Assembly: GCA_029260075.1 (NCBI GenBank) | Contig: JAJDDY010000092.1 | Location: 1 to 55,819 of the forward strand | Reading direction: 5' to 3' | Length of the DNA stretch: 55,819 nt | Origin: Phycisphaerae bacterium | Lineage (GTDB): Bacteria > Planctomycetota > Phycisphaerae > UBA1845 | Part shown: positions 9,398 through 43,088 of the stretch, one piece after another | Position numbering within the stretch: position 1 is the first letter of the stretch | Layout: each line of letters starts with the position of its first letter | Position numbers and translations under genes: made by a program | The notes under the pieces: generated by a model | Databases searched by the model: none | Told to the model about the DNA's origin: nothing | What the model saw: the letters and a program-made list of their open reading frames with translations, nothing else

Positions 9398-9826
9398 TTA
9401 AGGCTTGAAACGAGTTGGACACCGGCTCTCCCGGAGTCGATCCAGATTCGCAGACGCATGACCCACGATCAGGGCAACCTCGGCGAGTGCGCCGGTGAGC
9501 GCGTCCGTCGTCGAAGTAGGCATACCCAAGAACGTTGCGAGCAGGATCGTGATCGCGCCGGCAGCCGCAACCAAAATCAAGAGTTCACCGCTTTGGGTAA
9601 GCTCCAGCGGAACAATCCCCTTACCTGTGAAGGACTTCGCCGGCGAGTCGGCAGGCAGGATCGACAGAACGCTGCCGGCTAGAGTGGCGAGTGTTGTCCA
9701 GGTCAGGGCCGTGCGGTAGCTAGCCGTTCCGCAACCATACAGTGTGGCCACGCTCTTGAAGCTGTCGTTGGCGCCGTTGCTTTAGACGAGCCAGAAAACA
9801 GTCAGGATGAGTATCGCGAACGTCAC
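9398..9826 (-). pseudogene. PiT-family phosphate permease, broken at both ends
   Basis: From a GTG at 9826 the complement encodes a start segment (VTFAILILTVFWLV), an in-frame TAA at 9782-9784, and then SNGANDSFKSVATLYG followed by CGTASYRTALTWTT. This is the conserved GANDxFK signature of PiT (PHO4) inorganic phosphate permeases. Reading continues through two hydrophobic segments to the PTSTTDALTGAL motif and stops at 9398. The family is usually 330-500 residues; only about 140 codons remain. The internal stop is TAA, so selenocysteine cannot rescue it. The fragment sits 16 bases downstream of the 4Fe-4S membrane protein gene, so it was probably the last gene of that cluster. Confidence 0.85.
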
Positions 9827-9842
9827 TGACTATCTGCTTTCG

Positions 9843-11234
9843 TTAATATGAGACCGTCCTGTTTCCTCGCGGCGATGATCCATTCTCCAGCTTGAGTACG
9901 CCACGGGGACAGACCGCCGCGCACACACCACAACCGACACAGGAGGCTCGCACAATATTCTCGCCGCGCTGAGCGTAGGCGCGAATGTCGATTCCCATCT
10001 CGCAGTAGGTGGAACAATTGCCACAACTCATGCACTGGTCGCCATTCGTGGTGATGCGAAAGCGTGAAATATTTCGCTGCAAGATGCCAAGTATCGCCGC
10101 CATGGGACAACCAAAACGGCACCACACACGGCTACCCATGAGCGGATAAAACCCGACGCCGATCACACCGGCGAACATGTTCACAATGACAAACCCATAG
10201 GTTTTGTACGCAATCCGTGAGAACGAACCGAACACGCCGCCGGAAAGCGAGTGATCTATCCACAAGAGCGCCGTGACGAGGACTACCGCAATCAGCACGG
10301 AGTAGATTGTGATGCGCTCGATGCGCCAGGCGCGATCAGACTTGTCCGAAAGCTGCCGCCATGGATCGCCCAACGTCTCCGCCAATCCGCCGCACCCGCA
10401 AACCCAAGAACAGTACCAGCGCTTGCCAAAAAAATAGGTGAGTATGGGGGTCGCGATGAACGTAGCGAAGATGCCAAATCCGATCATGGCCACGCCAATG
10501 GCGCCGCCTTTGTCGATGATTCCACCGATCGCACCCGCGTCACCCGGCCACAAGTATTTTGGCTGAAGCGGCCAAAAATACGAAAAATAGAACTCTGGCT
10601 GGTCGAGCCGGCGCAGAATGCCCGGGAGTACAAACGCAACGCCAAGCTGAAAGAAGGACACGGAAACGGTGCGAACGATGTGGTACCGATTGTGTCGGTA
10701 CTTCATAATCATACGCACACCAAAGACGAAGACAGCGAGCGTGTAGAGGAATCCGTAGAAGAAGTACTGGTCCGCTGCGGCACCTCGAAGCGCAAACGAG
10801 ATCGGATCGATCAAGCGGATCACGCCTTCAAACAGCGCGGGCATTCCGGCGACCTGCAATTCCTTGTACCAGTAGAAGACGACGTAGAACCCGGTAATCA
10901 GAACCGCCAAGCCCCACGCGATCCAGCCGCGGCGTTGGACTCTTCGGAACATGATGCCGTCATGCTTGATTCCAGGCGTCGTGCCATGAAAACGAAACCA
11001 AGGTAGCGCTGTGCCGCCAACGAGCAACAGGCCGAAGCTGGCTCCGATCGCCAACCACCCGCCTCGCCCAAATCCAGCTAGTCCGCAGAGCACCACGCCT
11101 AGTAAACCAACGGCGATCGTGCCGACGGCGAAACGTTCGCCAATACTCATAGTTGGCGCGGGCATTCCTTCCGGTTCCTGGAAGCCAAACTGCTCTTCGT
11201 CGTAATCGTAGTTGAGAATTGGTAATTCGATCAT
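9843..11234 (-). CDS. Polytopic membrane 4Fe-4S electron-transfer protein (NapH/NosR-type)
   Basis: 463 residues with a soluble N-terminus, about seven membrane helices, and a C-terminal double [4Fe-4S] ferredoxin module: CMSCGNCSTYC then CVGCGVCAAVC. Between helices lie the two Cys motifs typical of NapH/NosR/RdxA-type quinol or electron-transfer proteins. The second is standard (WCRFGCP); the first reads CSWVCGCGG, without the usual proline. The protein should pass electrons across or along the cytoplasmic membrane. Its start overlaps the 3' end of the flavoprotein gene upstream by 4 bases (11231-11234), so the two are coupled. Together with the neighbouring flavoprotein and ferredoxin-NADP reductase-like protein it suggests an NAD(P)H-to-membrane electron chain; the terminal acceptor is not evident. 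Confidence 0.85.
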   Translation of the reverse strand: MIELPILNYDYDEEQFGFQEPEGMPAPTMSIGERFAVGTIAVGLLGVVLCGLAGFGRGGWLAIGASFGLLLVGGTALPWFRFHGTTPGIKHDGIMFRRVQRRGWIAWGLAVLITGFYVVFYWYKELQVAGMPALFEGVIRLIDPISFALRGAAADQYFFYGFLYTLAVFVFGVRMIMKYRHNRYHIVRTVSVSFFQLGVAFVLPGILRRLDQPEFYFSYFWPLQPKYLWPGDAGAIGGIIDKGGAIGVAMIGFGIFATFIATPILTYFFGKRWYCSWVCGCGGLAETLGDPWRQLSDKSDRAWRIERITIYSVLIAVVLVTALLWIDHSLSGGVFGSFSRIAYKTYGFVIVNMFAGVIGVGFYPLMGSRVWCRFGCPMAAILGILQRNISRFRITTNGDQCMSCGNCSTYCEMGIDIRAYAQRGENIVRASCVGCGVCAAVCPRGVLKLENGSSPRGNRTVSY

Positions 11235-12511
11235 GGCATTTGGCTCCGAAGCGCCCGAACTATTTCTCCCTCGTGGCGGTCGGAGAATTCAGTTTCAAAC
11301 CTTGCGTCTTCGAGATGATCGAGGACGTAGTCGATGGATCGTTTTTCCCGTATCCAGCTCTCGCAGACCTTGTGCCGTGCGCGCATACCCATAATATTCA
11401 TTGCTACGAACTCGCCTGATTCGGCATAGATCAGGCGTAAACCCTTGCGGTCGCTCGAATGTTCCCACCATAAGTTGATCTGCCCCGGCTGAGGTCTGTT
11501 CGCAACGAATCCGTACGTCTGGTATTCGAGGTCGAGGAACTTGGCCGAGTTGTACCATATGCCCGGGTCGTAACGGACGGTGCGCCCGGCCATCGCTTCC
11601 GCCGCGATTTCCCCCTGCATCTTGCCCGTGTACCAGACCTGCTGCATCAGGTTGCGGCTATCGCCTTCGTTGACAATCTCAGCACAATCTCCCGCCGCGA
11701 ATACGTTTGGTACGTTGGTTCGCAAGCCCCAATCCACAAGGATTCCTCGATTTGTTTCGATCTTGGACTCGCGAACCAAGTCGATGTTGGGCGAGACTCC
11801 CGCCGTCAGCCCCACGAGCTGCGCTTCGATACGTTCACCGCGACCAGTGACGACCGCACAAGCTGCGCCGGACCCATCGTCAACGATCTCCTTAAGTTCT
11901 GTTTCGAGGTGTAGTTGGAATCCGGCTTCTTGGATAACGCGCGTGACCATAGCGGATTCCTCGGCGGGCAATACATTGTCCCAGTAGCTTTTCTCTCGAA
12001 CGACGAAGGTGACAGGGATGTGGCATGAATGAAGCATCTCCCCGAACTCAATGCCGATCAATCCACCGCCCACGATGACCGCATGCTGCGTGCCCTTCAC
12101 GTTTTCGTATAGTTGATGAAGGTCCATCAGATCGTATAGGCCTTGAACTCGCCTCAAGTCCTGCCCGGGCCAGCCGAATTTGTTTGATTTCGACCCCGTG
12201 GCCAACAAGAGCTTGTCGTATGGGAGGGTCCCACCTTTGTGCAGCTTCAGCGTAGCAGCGTCGGTGTCGATCTCCGTCACCCAATCTCGCACTAGATCTA
12301 TGCGCTCCTCTTCCCAGATATGATCTTCAAACGGTTTCGTGTCGGCGTAGCGCATGTGCCCCATGAAAATGTACATCAGCGCCGGGCGCGAGAAATGGTA
12401 CTTCGACTCTCCAGAAATAACGGTGATGCGCCACTGCGGTTCGATCGACCGCAAGTGACGAGCGGCCGTGATGCCTGCGGCGCCGTTGCCGATGATGATC
12501 GCGTGTTCCAT
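11231..12511 (-). CDS. FAD-dependent pyridine nucleotide-disulfide-type oxidoreductase
   Basis: The start chosen is the ATG at 12511 (MEHAIIIGNGAAG), because the FAD-binding GxGxxG motif begins at once and AAAGGCG lies upstream; a longer frame reaches 12559. The 426-residue product has the N-terminal FAD site, a second Rossmann motif (AVIVGGGLIGIEFG) for NAD(P)H, and the NVFAAGDCAE motif that closes over the flavin. No redox-active CxxxxC was found in the N-terminal domain, so it resembles NADH:acceptor or rubredoxin/nitrite reductase-type flavoproteins more than a disulfide reductase. Its stop overlaps the start of the 4Fe-4S membrane protein. The likely role is handing NAD(P)H electrons to that protein; the partner is inferred from position only. 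Confidence 0.85.
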   Translation of the reverse strand: MEHAIIIGNGAAGITAARHLRSIEPQWRITVISGESKYHFSRPALMYIFMGHMRYADTKPFEDHIWEEERIDLVRDWVTEIDTDAATLKLHKGGTLPYDKLLLATGSKSNKFGWPGQDLRRVQGLYDLMDLHQLYENVKGTQHAVIVGGGLIGIEFGEMLHSCHIPVTFVVREKSYWDNVLPAEESAMVTRVIQEAGFQLHLETELKEIVDDGSGAACAVVTGRGERIEAQLVGLTAGVSPNIDLVRESKIETNRGILVDWGLRTNVPNVFAAGDCAEIVNEGDSRNLMQQVWYTGKMQGEIAAEAMAGRTVRYDPGIWYNSAKFLDLEYQTYGFVANRPQPGQINLWWEHSSDRKGLRLIYAESGEFVAMNIMGMRARHKVCESWIREKRSIDYVLDHLEDARFETEFSDRHEGEIVRALRSQMP

Positions 12512-12583
12512 ATTCACTACGCCTTTCATGCTACATGCGTATGGGTCGTCATTCCACACCGACCGTTTCCCAACATCATGAAC

Positions 12584-12816
12584 TCAGAATTCATGCAGGA
12601 AGACGAAATCGTTCGCGCGGGCACCACCATGGCACGCAGCACAGGCCGCGACCCTACCCTCGACTACGATCTGCCCTTCCAGTGTCACGTCGGCGCAGAA
12701 CCAACCCTTGTTGTCGGATCGAAGCCCGCCACCTTCCGCATCACCGCGAGCGCCGCAGCGGTTGCCAAACGTCCGATCGCTTCGTGAAAAAGATTACCTT
12801 GTTGCTGGCGTTCCAT
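12584..12816 (-). pseudogene. Short cytochrome c-like gene (CAACH) with a frameshift
   Basis: A clear ribosome site (AAGGAG) 6 bases before an ATG at 12816 opens a frame reading MERQQQGNLFHEAIG and on to VMRKVAGFDPTT. It then runs to an early TGA. In another frame, starting at about the same point, the text continues NKGWFCADVTLEG, then GRVAACAACHGGARAND, ending FVFLHEF at 12584. The CxxCH haem-binding motif near the C-terminus followed by NDFVF is typical of small P460-like or c-type cytochromes. One base gained or lost near 12720 would join the halves into about 78 codons. A signal peptide is missing, so the N-terminus is also truncated. It sits between the FNR-like and flavoprotein genes of the redox cluster. 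Confidence 0.65.
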
Positions 12817-12905
12817 GATCGACTCCTTGGATCGCCGAGTCGCGAACTCAGGACTCTACTATCTTGCTTTTCGGTTCCTGCGCGCTCCGGACAACCGATG
12901 TCACA

Positions 12906-13736
12906 TCACCAGTATCGTTCAATGTGCAAGGTGCCCGGCGAGCGTGTACTGTGGACGGCGAAGCCTCGATCCTTGAACTCGGCCTCCATGTCTTCAACCA
13001 TCTCAGGATTGCCGGAAATGAAGACATGCGTCGTCTTCGGCGAGAAGGCGCCGCCCAGCGCGTTTTCCAGAGTGCCGTCCGCGACTACAGATTGCACGCG
13101 CCCGATGTGACCGGCCCAAAGCGAGCCTTCCCTCGGTCGGCTGACCGTCGGCACGTAGACCATGGTCCTGCACTCGCGATGAAGAGCCTCCAACTCGTCC
13201 TTGTAGCCGAGGTCTTGCTCATAACGAGCCCCGTGGACGACCACGAATCGGCGACCAATGTTACACTGGTGATAAGCTCGAATCATCGAGATATAGGGCG
13301 CCAGACCGGTCCCCGTTCCGATCAAGACAACATCGCGATCCGCCGGGACGTCCTCCAATATGAACAGTCCCTTGGCCTTTGGCCCGAGCCAAAGCCGGTC
13401 GCCGCGTTGCAGCATCCATAGCCTTGGCGTCAGAGATCCGGATTTTACGAGCGTGACGTAGAGTTCAACGTACTTGCGAGCCTTCGATGACGAAGCGATG
13501 GAGTACGCTCTGACTATCCGTTTCCGGGGATTGCCGTTCGCATTCTCATCCGGCTCAGCGCCGTCAATTCGTGCGGAGTCGGTCGGAAGCCCGATCGTCG
13601 TGTACTGCCCGGCCAAGAACTCGAACAACGGAGCGTCCGCTTCGATCCTGAAGATCGCGGAATCCCCCGTGAGATCCTTCCGGGCGATCAGTGTGGCATT
13701 GTCCCATCCCTGCATGGTTGTGTTTTGCTTTGCCAA
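12906..13736 (-). CDS. Ferredoxin/flavodoxin-NADP+ reductase
   Basis: The start proposed is a TTG at 13736, because GGGAGG lies 5 bases before it; alternatives are an ATG at 13715 and an upstream start at 13778. The 276-residue product has the FNR fold: a flavin-binding beta-barrel with GQYTTIGLP and RAYSIASSS (binding FAD isoalloxazine and phosphates), then the NADP domain with GTGTGLAPYISMIR, the VVVHGAR strand and VFISGNPEMVEDM. The C-terminus HIERYW is characteristic of bacterial Fpr proteins, where the terminal aromatic residue stacks on FAD. It moves electrons between NADPH and a ferredoxin or flavodoxin. It is the first gene of the minus-strand redox cluster. Confidence 0.9.
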   Translation of the reverse strand: MAKQNTTMQGWDNATLIARKDLTGDSAIFRIEADAPLFEFLAGQYTTIGLPTDSARIDGAEPDENANGNPRKRIVRAYSIASSSKARKYVELYVTLVKSGSLTPRLWMLQRGDRLWLGPKAKGLFILEDVPADRDVVLIGTGTGLAPYISMIRAYHQCNIGRRFVVVHGARYEQDLGYKDELEALHRECRTMVYVPTVSRPREGSLWAGHIGRVQSVVADGTLENALGGAFSPKTTHVFISGNPEMVEDMEAEFKDRGFAVHSTRSPGTLHIERYW

Positions 13737-14046
13737 AGTTACCTCCCAACTTTGTAATGCCGGTGAGTGCGCGGTCAAACGGCCCGGTCAGCTATGGCCC
13801 TCGCGGGGTGATGACGAACGACCGAACCCCTTGCCTTTGGCTGACGGGTTCTTGAGCGCCGCGCGGACGAGCCTGCTAGCCTGATCGACATGATTGATCC
13901 ACGGACCGTTCCGCTGCTGACTTACCCAGGGTTCCGTTTTCGTTGTCCGCCATCGCCGAACCCGCAACCACCAGGAGTACACCGATGGCGATACTATGAG
14001 GCCAGTTTTGTGAATTCGCCGTTGTCAGAACCTCCCATCTCGCGCG
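13737..14046. other. Intergenic region
   Basis: About 310 bases between the membrane-protein gene and the FNR gene, both on the minus strand. No gene, strong promoter or long hairpin was recognised; short frames here lack any domain or ribosome site. Confidence 0.5.
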
Positions 14047-20325: not shown

Positions 20326-20970
20326 CTACCGCTCCGAAACTATCGCCTCGATCGCCGCGTTGAGGTTCAGGTAATCCTGATTGAGGTTGCTCTCTTCGGG
20401 ATCATTCGTGGGGCCAAACGCCGGTCCAGGGTGCACGTAACGGATGACCCCCATTTCGTCGAGCAGGAAACATACACTTGTGCTGCGCCGTTCGTCGGTG
20501 CCCAGATACACGCGCTGAAGGATCTTCCATTGTAGATCGGTCGCCACCCACCCTGTATATCCGAGCGCCTTCGCCATTCGCACCACATCATGCGCGGCCA
20601 CGTCGCGAGGCGGTTTGGGATGATATACGGCCAGTGTCTGCAGCCCTCTCGTCGCAAATTGCTCCCGTTGTCGTTCAATGGCGGGCAGGGACATCGCGCA
20701 TGACGGGCACGTGTCCGTCCACCAGCGAACCAGCGTCACCTTGCCCGCCAGTTTGACGGGCTTGTTATCCGGGGTATTCAGCCAATCAAGTTCGTCCAAC
20801 ACGAGATTTTTGCCCAGCAGATCTGCGCCTTCGGATGGCATCGGCACGCCGCCGGCTAGGCTGGGCACAGGATCCTCAGATTCTCTTTTCGTGGGCTGGT
20901 CCGTGCGCTGGTCGCAAGATGCTACGAAAAATGCGGTCGTTATTACGACACCCGCGAATACGTATTGCAT
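20326..20970 (-). CDS. TlpA-like thioredoxin-fold lipoprotein
   Basis: 214 residues. A signal peptide with lipobox (FFVASC, Cys19) anchors it outside the cytoplasmic membrane. The thioredoxin-like domain (about 50-190) carries the active-site WWTDTCPSC (Cys88, Cys91) after a beta strand (KVTLVRWW), and a typical strand QTLAVYHPK. It likely acts as a thiol-disulfide reductase or a redox carrier. Unlike the redoxin at 37609-39069, both active-site positions are ordinary Cys. The segment VCFLLDEMGVIRYVHPG is the usual cis-Pro side of TlpA/ResA proteins in shape, although the cis-Pro itself is not obvious. It is transcribed divergently from the vWA gene. Confidence 0.88.
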   Translation of the reverse strand: MQYVFAGVVITTAFFVASCDQRTDQPTKRESEDPVPSLAGGVPMPSEGADLLGKNLVLDELDWLNTPDNKPVKLAGKVTLVRWWTDTCPSCAMSLPAIERQREQFATRGLQTLAVYHPKPPRDVAAHDVVRMAKALGYTGWVATDLQWKILQRVYLGTDERRSTSVCFLLDEMGVIRYVHPGPAFGPTNDPEESNLNQDYLNLNAAIEAIVSER

Positions 20971-37608: not shown

Positions 37609-39069
37609 TCATTTGAGTGTGACCGCATCGTCTTCGACTACAATGGTGATTGAGAAATCCTTTCGGCGATATCGGCACTTGCCGTGCTTGTTTTCGCAGA
37701 CGTAGTACAGTGCGTACGCAGGAACCTCGATAATTCCCCAATTCCCGCCCCGTTCCACCGTAACCTCAAACTCAATAACGCGTAGCTCTTGTGATTCCGG
37801 TTTCTTCGGATTCGGATACGTCAGGGAACCTTCACCGAGGGTGAAGCCCTTCGGCAGGTTGACCCACACGGACAGGTCTTCGACTTCATTGTTCCACCAG
37901 GGCGCCGAGAGCGGACTAGGCCTGAACTCGAGACGAACACGTCCGCCATGTCCGGGGCGAATGCTTCCTGGTGTGACCATGCTGGTGACACTAATCATAT
38001 TCCGATCTTGGATAATTCGGCCTTCCGGGTCCCGATTGGTATTGGTCGCAACGGGATAGGCGTTCGCAGCGGCGGACGTGGATACGATTTCGGATCCGGT
38101 GGGAGGTATGTCCAATTCGATCGGTTGGCCGCCGCGTTTCTTGATGTCGGCCTGCGCGGTCTTCACCCACGTATAAAAATCGTACGGTTTGTCCAGACGC
38201 GGTCCGTATTGCTGAAGTCGTCGTCGCCAGATGTATTGGTTCGGGTCAGCCGCCAGTGCTTTGCACCAATGATCGATGGCTGACTGCGCGTCACCAGCAA
38301 ACCGCCCTCGCGACTCGTGGCGTCTCCAGAGGGCGACGCCCAGTCGAAACTCTGACCTCCCGTCATGCGTGCCCAGGTCGACAGCATGTTGGTAAGCCTT
38401 GACCGATAGGTTGAGCGCCTCGCTCTTGCCGTGAAGAAAATACGCGTCCCCCGCGCGGCGCCACAACGAGACGTTGTTAATCTTCTTGGCGGACGACATC
38501 AGTCTCTTAAGTTGCGGTTGCTTCACGCGGCCCGTAGAGCGCGGAATATGACCAGTGGAATATTGTTGACCCACGAACACCTTGTTCAGCCGGTCGACGG
38601 TGAGGTCCGTGTGTCGAACCACGCCGGCTTCGTCGAGCGCGAAAATGCGGGGTACCACGCGGGCATCCAGGAGATTGAGTGAATCGACGAAAACAGGCCA
38701 ACCGATTTCCCGCCACTGCGCATAGAGCGCCGCGCGGCGCGGATGCTGCTCCTGCACCACGCCAACAACTTTGAGTTGGCCTGAGTCAATGAATGGCTGA
38801 ACGGCTTGCTGCCACACGGGCAGGACACGGCGACACCCCGCTCACCACGAAGCGAACTGGACGAGCAACACTTTCGTGCCACGATAGTCCGACAGCCGTC
38901 CGAACTTGCCATCCAAGTCGGGAAGCAGGAAATCGGGATACAAGTCTCCGACCTTCTTCCCCACAGAGGGGAGCGAGTTTGCGCGTTGGGCGCTGGCCGC
39001 GTCGACCCCACAGAGTGTAGACATCACCGTCACAGCCAAACACCACGTCGAAGCTCGTTGTCTAAGCAC
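37609..39069 (-). CDS. Secreted redoxin-fold protein, candidate selenoprotein (in-frame TGA = Sec76)
   Basis: From a GTG at 39069, 7 bases after AAGGAG, one reading frame runs to 37609 with a single interruption: TGA at 38842-38844. The 486-residue reading has a signal peptide (about 1-28), then a redoxin/AhpC-TSA-like start (VGDLYPDFLLPDLDGK, KVLLVQFASW). The TGA falls exactly where the first active-site Cys of a thioredoxin CxxC belongs, giving W-U76-A-G-C79-RRVLP. The frame then continues with intact redoxin text (LKVVGVVQEQHPRRA, WPVFVDSLNLLDARVVP), an alpha-helical middle (about 175-295) and a beta-rich C-terminal domain (about 330-486). A short hairpin lies 18 bases after the TGA. Redoxin-type selenoproteins with UxxC are known in planctomycetes. 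The alternative is a recent nonsense mutation; the downstream frame has its own GTG at 38817, but that start lacks a ribosome site. Confidence 0.75.
38809..38823 (-). promoter_or_regulatory. Candidate bacterial SECIS hairpin
   Basis: On the coding strand CTGCC-CGTGT-GGCAG forms a perfect 5-bp stem with a 5-base loop that has G then U at loop positions 2-3. It starts 18 bases after the TGA, so the loop is 23 bases away, within the range known for bacterial SECIS elements. The stem is short, and no longer lower stem was clear by eye. Confidence 0.5.
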
Positions 39070-39279
39070 GAAGAATCTCCTTACGCGAACGATCTATTCT
39101 GCCACTTGGTATACGGTGAAAGCTTCCAATCGACATTGCGACAGCGATCGATCAATCGATATCGATTCAACGGGATTCGATCATCAGGCGCTCGCGCCAG
39201 TGTAATGACTGCGCGGTCGAGCGTCCAGAGATTGCGAATCCAGATGCGTTAGCGACCGGGCCACCGCAACCCAAACGGC

Positions 39280-40319: not shown

Positions 40320-41669
40320 ATGACAGTTACCCATCGAGTCCGCATTGACCGATGCACGACAACGATCGTGTCGGTCGTTGTCGTATTGTTCAGCAGCGCA
40401 CGCGTTCCGGCCCAGACAGGTCCGATCTTTCAAAACTTGGGAACAGTTCCCGAGCCCTCGTTTGCTCGGATCGCGGCTCCGTTCGGGATTTCGGCAAACG
40501 GATTGGTCGTCGTTGGTTTGGTGGATACCGCCGCTGCGTTGAATGGCGAGCCATTTCGCTGGACCACGGAAACCGGCATGGTTGGTCTTGGCCTTCCGGA
40601 ACTAGCTACCTACGGCGAAGCTTGGGGGACGTCCGCCGACGGGTCGGTCGTTGTGGGCCAGGTAAAGATGAACACTGGGATGCGACGGGCCTTTCGCTGG
40701 ACGGTGTCCGAGGGCATGGTGTTTCTTGGTAATCTTCCCGGAGGCGGCGATGACAGCTCGGCGCTCGGCGTCTCGGCGGACGGGTCGGTGATCGTTGGGT
40801 GGTCCGAGAGTGTGCGCGGGTCCGAGGCGTTCCGCTGGACCGAGTCGGGCGGCATGGTCGGCCTGGGCGACCTGCCCGGACCTGCTTTCAACAGCATAGC
40901 GCTTGCCGTTTCCGCGGACGGGTCGGTCGTGGTCGGCGCTGGCGACAGGAGCTTGAGTTCGGGTGAGCCGTTCCGCTGGACGCAGGCCGGCGGAATGGTC
41001 GGGCTCGGGCTTCTGCCTGGCGGGAGTTCCGGCGGCGAAGCTACCGCCGCCTCGGCGGACGGATCGGTAGTCGTCGGCTACGCATTCAACAGCCAAGATG
41101 CCTTTGAGGCGTTCCGGTGGACGGTGGCGGACGGAATGGTCGGGTTGGGCGACGTACCCGGCGGGCAGTTCAGAAGTATGGCCCGAGATGTTTCTGCGGA
41201 CGGTAACGTGATCGTGGGAACGGGCGATTCACTGGAGACGTTTATCTGGGATCCGGTCAACGGAATGCGCAACCTTGAGGCCGTATTGAGAGACGAAATC
41301 GGTTTGGACCTGACAGGTTGGTGGCACCTTGACTTCGCGATGGGCGTTTCCGATGATGGGCGAGTGATCGCGGGTTCCGGGTCCGGCCCAACTATGGGTT
41401 CTGAAGTGTGGCGGGCCATACTCAACGAGTGCGGTACGAACGCTGATTGCAGTGACGGGTTGTTCTGCAATGGCGTCGAGACGTGCGTCGCCAACGTGTG
41501 CGTGCCCGGCGTCGACGTCTGCCCGGCCGGTGATCCCTGCATCGAGGCCTCGCACCTCTGCGCCAGCGACATCCCCACCCTATCCCAATGGGGCCTAGTC
41601 GCCCTGACCCTACTACTACTCACCGCCGCAACCTTCATACTAAAACAACGCGCGGTGACGGAGAGGTGA
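40320..41669 (+). CDS. HAF-repeat surface protein with IPTL-CTERM sorting signal
   Basis: 449 residues; AGGAGG lies 5 bases before the ATG. A signal peptide (TIVSVVVVLFSSARVPAQ) leads to about seven HAF-type repeats of roughly 50 residues, each with a core like SADGSVVVG and EAFRWT..GGMVGLGDLPG (about 55-345). These are read as beta-propeller or beta-solenoid blades. A Cys-rich segment follows (CGTNADCSDGLFCNGVETC), then the IPTL-CTERM tail: the DIPTLSQWG motif, a membrane helix (VALTLLLLTAATFIL) and basic residues KQR. Such tails are cut or processed by an exosortase/archaeosortase-like or rhombosortase-type system and sort proteins to the outer surface or matrix. Its close paralogue follows 57 bases later. 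Confidence 0.92.
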   Translation: MTVTHRVRIDRCTTTIVSVVVVLFSSARVPAQTGPIFQNLGTVPEPSFARIAAPFGISANGLVVVGLVDTAAALNGEPFRWTTETGMVGLGLPELATYGEAWGTSADGSVVVGQVKMNTGMRRAFRWTVSEGMVFLGNLPGGGDDSSALGVSADGSVIVGWSESVRGSEAFRWTESGGMVGLGDLPGPAFNSIALAVSADGSVVVGAGDRSLSSGEPFRWTQAGGMVGLGLLPGGSSGGEATAASADGSVVVGYAFNSQDAFEAFRWTVADGMVGLGDVPGGQFRSMARDVSADGNVIVGTGDSLETFIWDPVNGMRNLEAVLRDEIGLDLTGWWHLDFAMGVSDDGRVIAGSGSGPTMGSEVWRAILNECGTNADCSDGLFCNGVETCVANVCVPGVDVCPAGDPCIEASHLCASDIPTLSQWGLVALTLLLLTAATFILKQRAVTER

Positions 41670-41726
41670 ACAGCAAGCGTCTACGCGCACGGCGACGTGA
41701 ACAGCCGCGACGATAAGGAAATCGGT

Positions 41727-43088
41727 ATGAGTCGGAACAATCAAGAGCATTTTTCGCGGTTGGTCGGAACGGTTTTCTTAGGCGTCGTGTTCTTCGCCGC
41801 CGCGCCAACGCTCGCCCAACGAGGCCCTAGTTTTCAGGGGTTGGGGCTGGTTCCCGCACCTGGCTTTGATGCCTTTACTTCTTCCGACGGCCTTTCGGCG
41901 GACGGATTGGTCGCGATTGGTCACGGACTTCTGCTTGTAGGAGATCAGGAGCCGTTTCGCTGGACGGAGGCAACGGGGTTTATGATTCTGCCCGGCGTGC
42001 CCGGAGCTATCTACAGCTCACCGCACGCCACGTCGGGCGATGGGTCGGTCGTCGTGGGTACGTCCAGAATGGGCACAGGGCTCGTTCGCGCTTTTCGATG
42101 GACCCTCTCGCGAGGGACAGTGTTCATCGGCGACCTTCCCGGCGGTGATGTAAACAGCGCCGCGCTAGGTGTATCCGCAGATGCCTCGGTGATCGTTGGG
42201 GGTTCAGAGACTGGGTCGGGAACTGAGGCCTTCCGGTGGACGCAGTCGGGCGGCATGGTCGGTCTTGGATTCCTACCGGGATTGACTTTCGCAAGCAGCG
42301 CGACCGACGTCTCCGGCGACGGTACCGTGATCGTCGGGTCTTCGTCCGCCAACTTTGGGGCCGATCCGGCGTCGGAGGCGTTTCGTTGGACTGCTAGCGA
42401 GGGTATGGTTGGACTTGGTGACCTGCTTGGCGGAAGTTTCCAGAGTCGTGCCACCGCTGTTTCTTCGGACGGGTCGGTGGTTGTCGGCAGCGCGGTCAGC
42501 GGCGGAGGTAGTCTTGAGGCATTCCGCTGGACGGCGGCGGGGGGCATGGTCGGTCTGGGTGACCTGCCCGGAGGATTCTTCAGCAGTGTGGCTCTTGACG
42601 TCTCTGCAGACGGAAGTGTCGTCGTGGGGTTGGGCAACGCTGCCGACCAGGAGGCGTTCATCTGGGATCCCGTCAACGGGATGCGCAAGCTGCAGGACGT
42701 GCTCGAAAACGAACTCGGCCTTGACCTGCAGGGCTGGTTCAATCTTGGCTCCGCCGATGGGATTTCCGCAGATGGAAGAGTGATCACCGGCACGGGTAGG
42801 AATCCCGACAGTCGTCTTGAATCTTGGATCGCCGTTCTCAACGAATGCGGTCGTGACGCTGATTGCAGTGACGGGTTGTTCTGCAACGGGGTGGAGACGT
42901 GCGTCGCCAACGTGTGTGTGCCCGGCGTCGACGTCTGCCCGGCCGGTGATCCATGCATCGAGGCGTCGCACCTCTGCGCCAGCGACATCCCCACCCTATC
43001 CCAATGGGGCCTCGTCGCCCTGACCCTGCTACTACTCACCGCCGCAACGTCCATACTAAACCAACGCACGTCGCGTGCGATGCCCTAG
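41727..43088 (+). CDS. HAF-repeat surface protein with IPTL-CTERM sorting signal (paralogue)
   Basis: The start chosen is the ATG at 41727, with AAGGAA 6 bases upstream; an open GTG at 41697 lacks support. The 453-residue product has a signal peptide ending near FFAAAPTLAQ, HAF-type repeats (SADGSVVVG / EAFRWT / GGMVGLGDLPGG), the Cys-rich segment, DIPTLSQWG, a helix and a short basic tail. Over the repeats it has diverged from the first paralogue, but the last 71 codons are about 95 percent identical at the DNA level. It is probably co-transcribed with 40320-41669. The repeat element B begins at its stop codon. The function of HAF proteins is unknown beyond surface or secreted location. Confidence 0.92.
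   Translation: MSRNNQEHFSRLVGTVFLGVVFFAAAPTLAQRGPSFQGLGLVPAPGFDAFTSSDGLSADGLVAIGHGLLLVGDQEPFRWTEATGFMILPGVPGAIYSSPHATSGDGSVVVGTSRMGTGLVRAFRWTLSRGTVFIGDLPGGDVNSAALGVSADASVIVGGSETGSGTEAFRWTQSGGMVGLGFLPGLTFASSATDVSGDGTVIVGSSSANFGADPASEAFRWTASEGMVGLGDLLGGSFQSRATAVSSDGSVVVGSAVSGGGSLEAFRWTAAGGMVGLGDLPGGFFSSVALDVSADGSVVVGLGNAADQEAFIWDPVNGMRKLQDVLENELGLDLQGWFNLGSADGISADGRVITGTGRNPDSRLESWIAVLNECGRDADCSDGLFCNGVETCVANVCVPGVDVCPAGDPCIEASHLCASDIPTLSQWGLVALTLLLLTAATSILNQRTSRAMP

Follow-up and report, generated by a model that had tools for sequence, protein, structure and literature searches.

Results

A redoxin gene interrupted by a single TGA codon

The gene described here occupies 37609..39069 on the minus strand of the window, by which we mean the whole 55,819-nucleotide stretch of the Phycisphaerae contig JAJDDY010000092.1 that was analysed, and it comprises 486 codons from a GTG start at 39069 to a terminal TGA at 37611-37609. 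The sole internal stop of this frame, as a first-pass annotation of the same DNA had reported, is a TGA at 38842..38844 (minus strand; 38844-38842 in reading direction), which is codon 76. It takes the place of the first Cys in a thioredoxin motif (UxxC), which reads FASW-U-A-G-C79 with U76 at the TGA, and the Pfam AhpC-TSA and Redoxin matches span the codon. This assignment rests on the reading of the frame and on conservation among homologues.

A ribosome-binding site, AAGGAG (39077..39082, minus strand; 39082-39077 as read), was found by direct reading 7 nt 5′ of the GTG start, and residues 1-29 (38983..39069, minus strand) resemble a signal peptide by eye, with a helix at residues 6-29 in the structural model described below. 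Both features belong to the part upstream of the TGA, in agreement with the earlier description. The downstream part does contain the GTG attributed to it, at 38817, and this codon opens an ORF of 402 aa. It lies inside the loop of the hairpin described below, where loop counts give GGG instead in 43 of 81 sequences, and is thus not conserved.

Identity to six relatives at codon positions 1, 2 and 3 was 0.59, 0.72 and 0.39 before the TGA (383 codon pairs) and 0.60, 0.70 and 0.36 after it (2446 codon pairs). Because these patterns are alike on either side of the TGA, both sides appear to evolve as protein under purifying selection. Homologues also keep both sides, so the claim that the codons before and after the TGA are coding stands.

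The TGA codon in related genomes

We read the codon in three samples. The first consisted of 60 related genomes with 17 family loci, omitting L033, a short C-terminal fragment, and the weaker redoxin matches from L035 on. TGA was present at the same codon in 12 of the 17 loci including the window gene (11 of 16 without it), and the five non-TGA loci read CEAS (L027), SKEC (L030), HAQS (L031), HAAS (L032) and HAAS (L034). The second sample (L050-L129) was obtained by a contig scan with a 12-member alignment, from which the best 80 of 183 relatives were taken; a first scan with a single protein as query had given 17 pattern matches with no relatives among them. The scan patterns included FASWCAGC and RRR[IL]QQYGP, so Cys forms were detectable. 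TGA occupied the corresponding codon in all 80 of these best loci, whose titles name 11 phyla, and the alignment proposed as a check thus yielded TGA at this codon with conservation on both sides. In one of the 80, L085, the frame also contains a TAG, two codons past the motif Cys.

For the third, 392 genomes were drawn evenly from the window's phylum and scored for a family match at E <= 1e-30. Such a match was found in 43 genomes, the window's own included, and the redoxin-covering match contained TGA in 43/43, with stops only being counted; an extra stop besides the TGA occurred in 4 of the 43. No CxxC form was seen among the best 80 of 183 relatives, the 17 loci of 60 genomes or the 43 matching genomes of 392, three counts that are not independent because several L050-L129 loci apparently overlap with the other two samples.

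A tree of L050-L129, leaving out L064 and L085, was largely ordered by phylum, with 14 label changes against a possible minimum of 10 and a mean of 40.1 in shuffles. Because of this phylum order, the family looks old. As sampled here, it appears to be a widespread family in which only selenocysteine is used at this site.

Two signs that had been named as speaking against a selenoprotein, loss of the downstream domain and TGC at the codon, do each occur in one relative without Sec (L031 and L027, respectively). They leave the reading intact, because both relatives belong to a single genome family and have motifs that are degraded in other respects.

Selenium machinery in the genome and in its relatives

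The window's genome (G000; 4.9 Mb, 96.9% complete) holds all four genes that the first-pass annotation had suggested looking for, and the absence of selC or selB that would have counted against it was not seen. selC scored 69.4 bits (cut-off 47) and was called by ARAGORN as tRNA-Sec with anticodon tca; selB scored 337.7 bits (cut-off 242), selA, which adjoins selB on contig C4, 570 bits (cut-off 268), and selD 370 bits (cut-off 125). The selD gene (L048, contig C36:12227-13150, minus strand) has an in-frame TGA of its own near the start, CAGUAGK, which we take to resemble the Sec form of SelD and which accords with the reading of some TGA codons as Sec in this genome. The same genome holds a second candidate Sec redoxin (L163, contig C86, about 285598-285957, plus strand), which is ResA-like, has a lipobox-like start and reads WALGUAPC.

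Within the phylum sample, selA (E <= 1e-30) was present in 39 of the 43 family-bearing genomes and in 207 of the 349 genomes without the family (Fisher p = 2e-5, odds ratio 6.7); no selA match was found in the other 4 of the 43. We also examined the genomes that carry 50 of the 80 loci (50 genomes, mostly of other phyla) and found selA in 45, selC in 40 and at least one of the two in 49, the genome of L073 being the sole case with neither. An 80-genome set did not discriminate, with selA over the cut-off in 32 of 38 genomes with the TGA form versus 38 of 42 without it. Of the six TGA-form genomes below the cut-off, five had no convincing selA. Draft genomes may account for these gaps, though G323 and G141 are 91 and 92% complete, respectively.

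A conserved hairpin downstream of the TGA

A hairpin with a 5-bp stem (CTGCC/GGCAG) and a 5-nt loop (CGTGT, with G second) occupies 15 nt at 38809..38823 on the minus strand (38823-38809 as read), 18 nt 3′ of the TGA, exactly where it had been placed by the earlier annotation. It is paired in 81/81 sequences (405/405 cells), and slid versions of the hairpin pair in 20 to 73% of cells. Both sides had changed in 19 cells; shuffling gave 3.3, and none of 500 shuffles reached the observed value. By a weaker measure, the number of pairs with a double change was 2, matched by 43 of 500 shuffles, and 3 of the 5 pairs are invariant. Stem variants are GTGCC/GGCAC, ATACC/GGTAT (L063) and GTACC/GGTAC (L100). 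The rows of this covariation count are sequences, not events; on the tree, the commonest double change is one deep split, and L063 and L100 are further separate cases. RNAalifold recovered the identical five pairs unaided.

Loop position 2 is G in 81/81 sequences and is followed by G or U. The bSECIS model, as given in the relevant passage of PMC13188914, specifies a loop of 3-9 nt, a stem of 4-16 bp, a G in the first two loop positions, 16-37 nt from the UGA to the loop and a minimum free energy <= -7.5 kcal/mol. Loop, stem (in 81/81 sequences), loop G and the UGA-to-loop distance of 23 nt all fit this model. In its 30-nt context, the window hairpin has an energy of -8.4 kcal/mol and a probability of 0.99, and 75 of the 81 sequences pass -7.5; the bare 15-nt hairpin has -6.0 kcal/mol (range -6.8 to -2.5 over the 81 sequences), and 0/81 reach that value. 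Over a 53-nt stretch, the minimum fold in the window is another structure (z = -1.08) and the hairpin has a probability of 0.007, versus more than 0.5 in 48 of the 81 sequences. Because a ribosome would cover part of this longer stretch, covariation was weighed above energy. Comparison across the family identifies the hairpin as the predicted SECIS element of this gene.

Three parts follow the signal peptide

To model the protein, we used AlphaFold2 with an alignment of 67 family members, consisting of the window protein and 66 of the 80 loci. Five loci were dropped as truncated or with extra stops (L064, L079, L082, L085, L100) and nine to limit the size of the alignment (L075, L084, L094, L096, L106, L108, L111, L112, L123). 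The model has a pLDDT of 92.4 and a pTM of 0.90, with a thioredoxin part at about 36-173 and a beta domain at 359-478. Ahead of the thioredoxin part there is a single long helix, that of the signal peptide, and neither the model nor Pfam gave a membrane domain.

A ResA/TlpA-like redoxin domain spans residues 39-170 (38560..38955, minus strand; Pfam AhpC-TSA 9.4e-11, Redoxin 1.4e-8) and matches ResA and Etrx2 in the PDB by both sequence and structure. PF08534 is matched by 65 of the 67 members, and Pro140, presumably the cis-Pro of the thioredoxin fold by analogy, is present in 30/30 aligned sequences. Matches in a viral structure library were weak (thioredoxin or glutathione peroxidase-like, others, and some without a name) and were set aside. 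The window contains a second redoxin at 20326-20970 (minus strand), which has an ordinary Cys pair (TCPSC).

A TPR-like helical segment (residues 187-311; 38137..38511, minus strand), absent from the earlier description, separates the redoxin from the beta-rich domain. It is supported by the alignment, by PDB and Pfam matches to TPR proteins and by the AlphaFold2 model, and carries the nearly invariant motif YIWRRR-x-QQYGP (279-290).

The fused beta-rich C-terminal domain that the first-pass annotation had pointed out is real, and profile-profile comparison newly assigns it as similar to DsbD_N, the alpha domain of DsbD (residues 358-473; 37651..37998, minus strand). Using hhalign, we compared it with 30 DsbD_N domains taken from within the phylum and obtained a probability of 97.7 and a score of 74.3 over 112 columns, with Cys458 (37698-37696, minus strand) and Cys465 (37677-37675, minus strand) aligned on the DsbD_N Cys pair. 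Twelve column shuffles and a reversal scored <=12.8 versus 74.3, masking of all Cys left 62.8, and the DsbD_N profile, run against the whole protein, selected the C-terminal domain.

Pfam DsbD_N (PF11412; cut-off 25 bits) had no match in the window protein at E 1 and weak matches in 5 of the 50 members of a C-terminal alignment (A4; 49 of the 80 loci and the window), the best with E 0.0055, and other weak Pfam matches to this domain included NPCBM_assoc in 11 of the 50. The C-terminal profile found two PDB sequences, both at chance level, and the domain modelled alone, with no alignment, reached a pLDDT of 46. DsbD does not appear among the structure matches shown, which the thioredoxin domain fills. 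Overall, the C-terminal domain is very probably DsbD-like, as judged from the profile comparison.

Redox residues and their joint loss

No variation was found in the 67/67 aligned Sec members at C79, C458, C465 or position 76, where Sec was treated as Cys for the comparison. Of the five relatives without Sec, L031 has no C-terminal domain; in the four others, where it is retained, neither Cys458 nor Cys465 is present. Residues 76 and 79 of the five are C/S, S/C, H/S, H/S and H/S. Separate roles would explain this joint loss less well than one redox chain. All five relatives belong to a single genome family (f8), one member of which keeps the Sec form (L026), so the losses of the Cys pair possibly represent few events only.

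Flanking genes

No conserved partner gene was found in flanks of up to 3 kb around L050-L129 (ORFs of at least 110 aa), the largest shared cluster covering 4 of the 80 loci. A separate DsbD_N protein is encoded on contig C64 of the window's genome.

Elsewhere in the window, three consecutive redox genes at 9843-13778 (minus strand) encode a 4Fe-4S protein with hydrophobic stretches (by eye), a pyridine nucleotide-disulphide oxidoreductase and an FAD/NAD reductase. An ORF at 9398-9751 (minus strand) matches positions 10-105 of the 350 of the PHO4 phosphate transporter family and is apparently a fragment. At 40320-43088 (plus strand), two adjoining similar proteins have repeated VSADGSVVVG-like stretches; the first has an IPTL-CTERM motif and the second ends alike.

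Discussion

The proposal that this gene encodes a selenoprotein is supported by the selA, selB, selC and selD genes of its genome, by TGA-bearing homologues and by a covarying hairpin, and the TGA at codon 76 is almost certainly read as selenocysteine. The protein has known relatives in parts. Like ResA, TlpA and Etrx2, it has a thioredoxin-like fold with a CxxC-type motif; unlike them, it has Sec for the first Cys and fused TPR-like and DsbD_N-like parts. The NCBIfam entry NF041054 (ResA-like WAxxUGC motif-containing protein) matches residues 44-298 and 67/67 aligned members, but its motif is UGC rather than UxxC, its model has 354 positions compared with 486 residues here, and its match stops before the C-terminal domain. 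The window protein scores 66 bits against a cut-off of 300, and because its own genome yields no NF041054 match over the cut-off, the gene does not fall under that entry. In profile comparison, the C-terminal domain resembles the N-terminal domain of DsbD, Cys pair included; DsbD likewise has a thioredoxin domain in the same chain. In DsbD, the thioredoxin part is not first, the reverse of the order seen here, and the present protein differs further in having no membrane domain and in having Sec in its thioredoxin part.

We propose that ribosomes start at the GTG at 39069 and that SelB and tRNA-Sec would insert Sec at UGA 76, directed by the hairpin 18 nt downstream. The product would be one protein of 486 residues, with export suggested by the signal peptide, that consists after this peptide of a ResA/TlpA-type thioredoxin (Sec76-x-x-Cys79), a TPR-like spacer and a DsbD-alpha-like domain (Cys458-x6-Cys465). 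Its role would most likely be that of a soluble periplasmic thiol-disulfide reductase, in which electrons would pass between Cys458/Cys465 and Sec76/Cys79 while the TPR-like part holds or docks them. A membrane protein of the DsbD/CcdA type could serve as donor, for example the DsbD_N protein encoded on contig C64. An exported reductase whose two pairs exchange electrons is, taken as a whole, a probable explanation of the gene; for the electron relay as such, the residue patterns tip us slightly in favour. We infer the direction of electron flow, the partner and the substrate.

Two readings would take the TGA out of selenocysteine decoding altogether, and we reject both. If it were a true stop, the locus would hold two separate proteins or a decaying pseudogene; the GTG start in the downstream half, the in-frame TAG of L085 and the extra stops in 4 of the 43 phylum matches could be read in that sense. 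Such a stop would break the redoxin domain within its active site, and it is contradicted by the TGA found in 80/80 loci, the like codon patterns on both sides, the covarying hairpin and the lack of conservation of the downstream GTG, so that we regard it as very improbable. A changed genetic code in which TGA encodes an ordinary amino acid has next to no likelihood: no point in its support was found, TGA ends 11 of 28 long, hand-picked ORFs of the window as well as the gene itself, and the genome encodes a full Sec system. Given a Sec redoxin, the internal relay is less settled. The DsbD-like domain and its Cys pair could instead be structural or bind a substrate or partner, with a separate thioredoxin or DsbD reducing Sec76/Cys79. 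A redoxin domain that is complete on its own, a TPR-like segment that suggests protein binding and a contact of the two Cys pairs that is not evident from sequence alone all agree with this arrangement, which we consider a serious but less probable option in view of a Cys pair that is invariant in the aligned Sec members, aligns with the DsbD_N pair and is missing in 4/4 testable non-Sec relatives.

The remaining alternative concerns novelty. A 2026 review counts 119 selenoprotein families or subfamilies (PMC13188914), and its catalogue passages include "Redoxin family protein (PF08534, UxxC)", "Prx-like thiol:disulfide oxidoreductase (PF00578, UxxC)", "UGC-containing TlpA" and "rhodanese/DsbD fusion-like TsoB". 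These families resemble ours in having Sec in a thioredoxin-like or DsbD-related protein; compared by description, none is said in these passages to have a TPR and DsbD_N architecture or a Sec-only distribution. Our family might nonetheless already be the first of these entries, a poorly described known selenoprotein. PF08534 is indeed matched by nearly all members, an entry of this kind stands in Table 1 of PMC13188914 and in PMC9312934, with one differing accession each, and the part of PMC4807772 concerned reports selenoproteins of two Planctomycetes. Numerous Cys relatives surround many of the known bacterial selenoprotein families (PMC2398784), and the presumed source row in that paper, Prx-like 3, which we equate with the redoxin entry on domain and motif only, counts 68 homologues with Sec and 2,608 with Cys; by contrast, no CxxC homologue appeared among the sequences read here. 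The catalogue passages also leave a TPR or DsbD-like part unmentioned, and we think it rather doubtful that the family has been catalogued. A search of the open-licence literature, with subscription papers, preprints and supplementary tables outside its scope, found neither the motif (SWUAGC, ASWUAG, WUAGCR) nor the architecture named. The family is widespread and little described, and the assignment of its C-terminal domain as DsbD_N-like with an invariant Cys pair is newly made here.

More tentatively, we suggest that this Sec-only family, a soluble exported fusion of a Sec-thioredoxin, a TPR-like part and a DsbD-alpha-like domain, might be a single-chain selenium-thiol relay that replaces the periplasmic halves of DsbD without the membrane domain, and that after loss of Sec the whole chain would decay with no reversion to CxxC. 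Gene callers that treat TGA as a stop only would split the gene, so the family may hide in many environmental genomes. With a Sec-only distribution, the question of why selenium is needed would become testable in one protein, for which the internal Cys pair is a likely partner.
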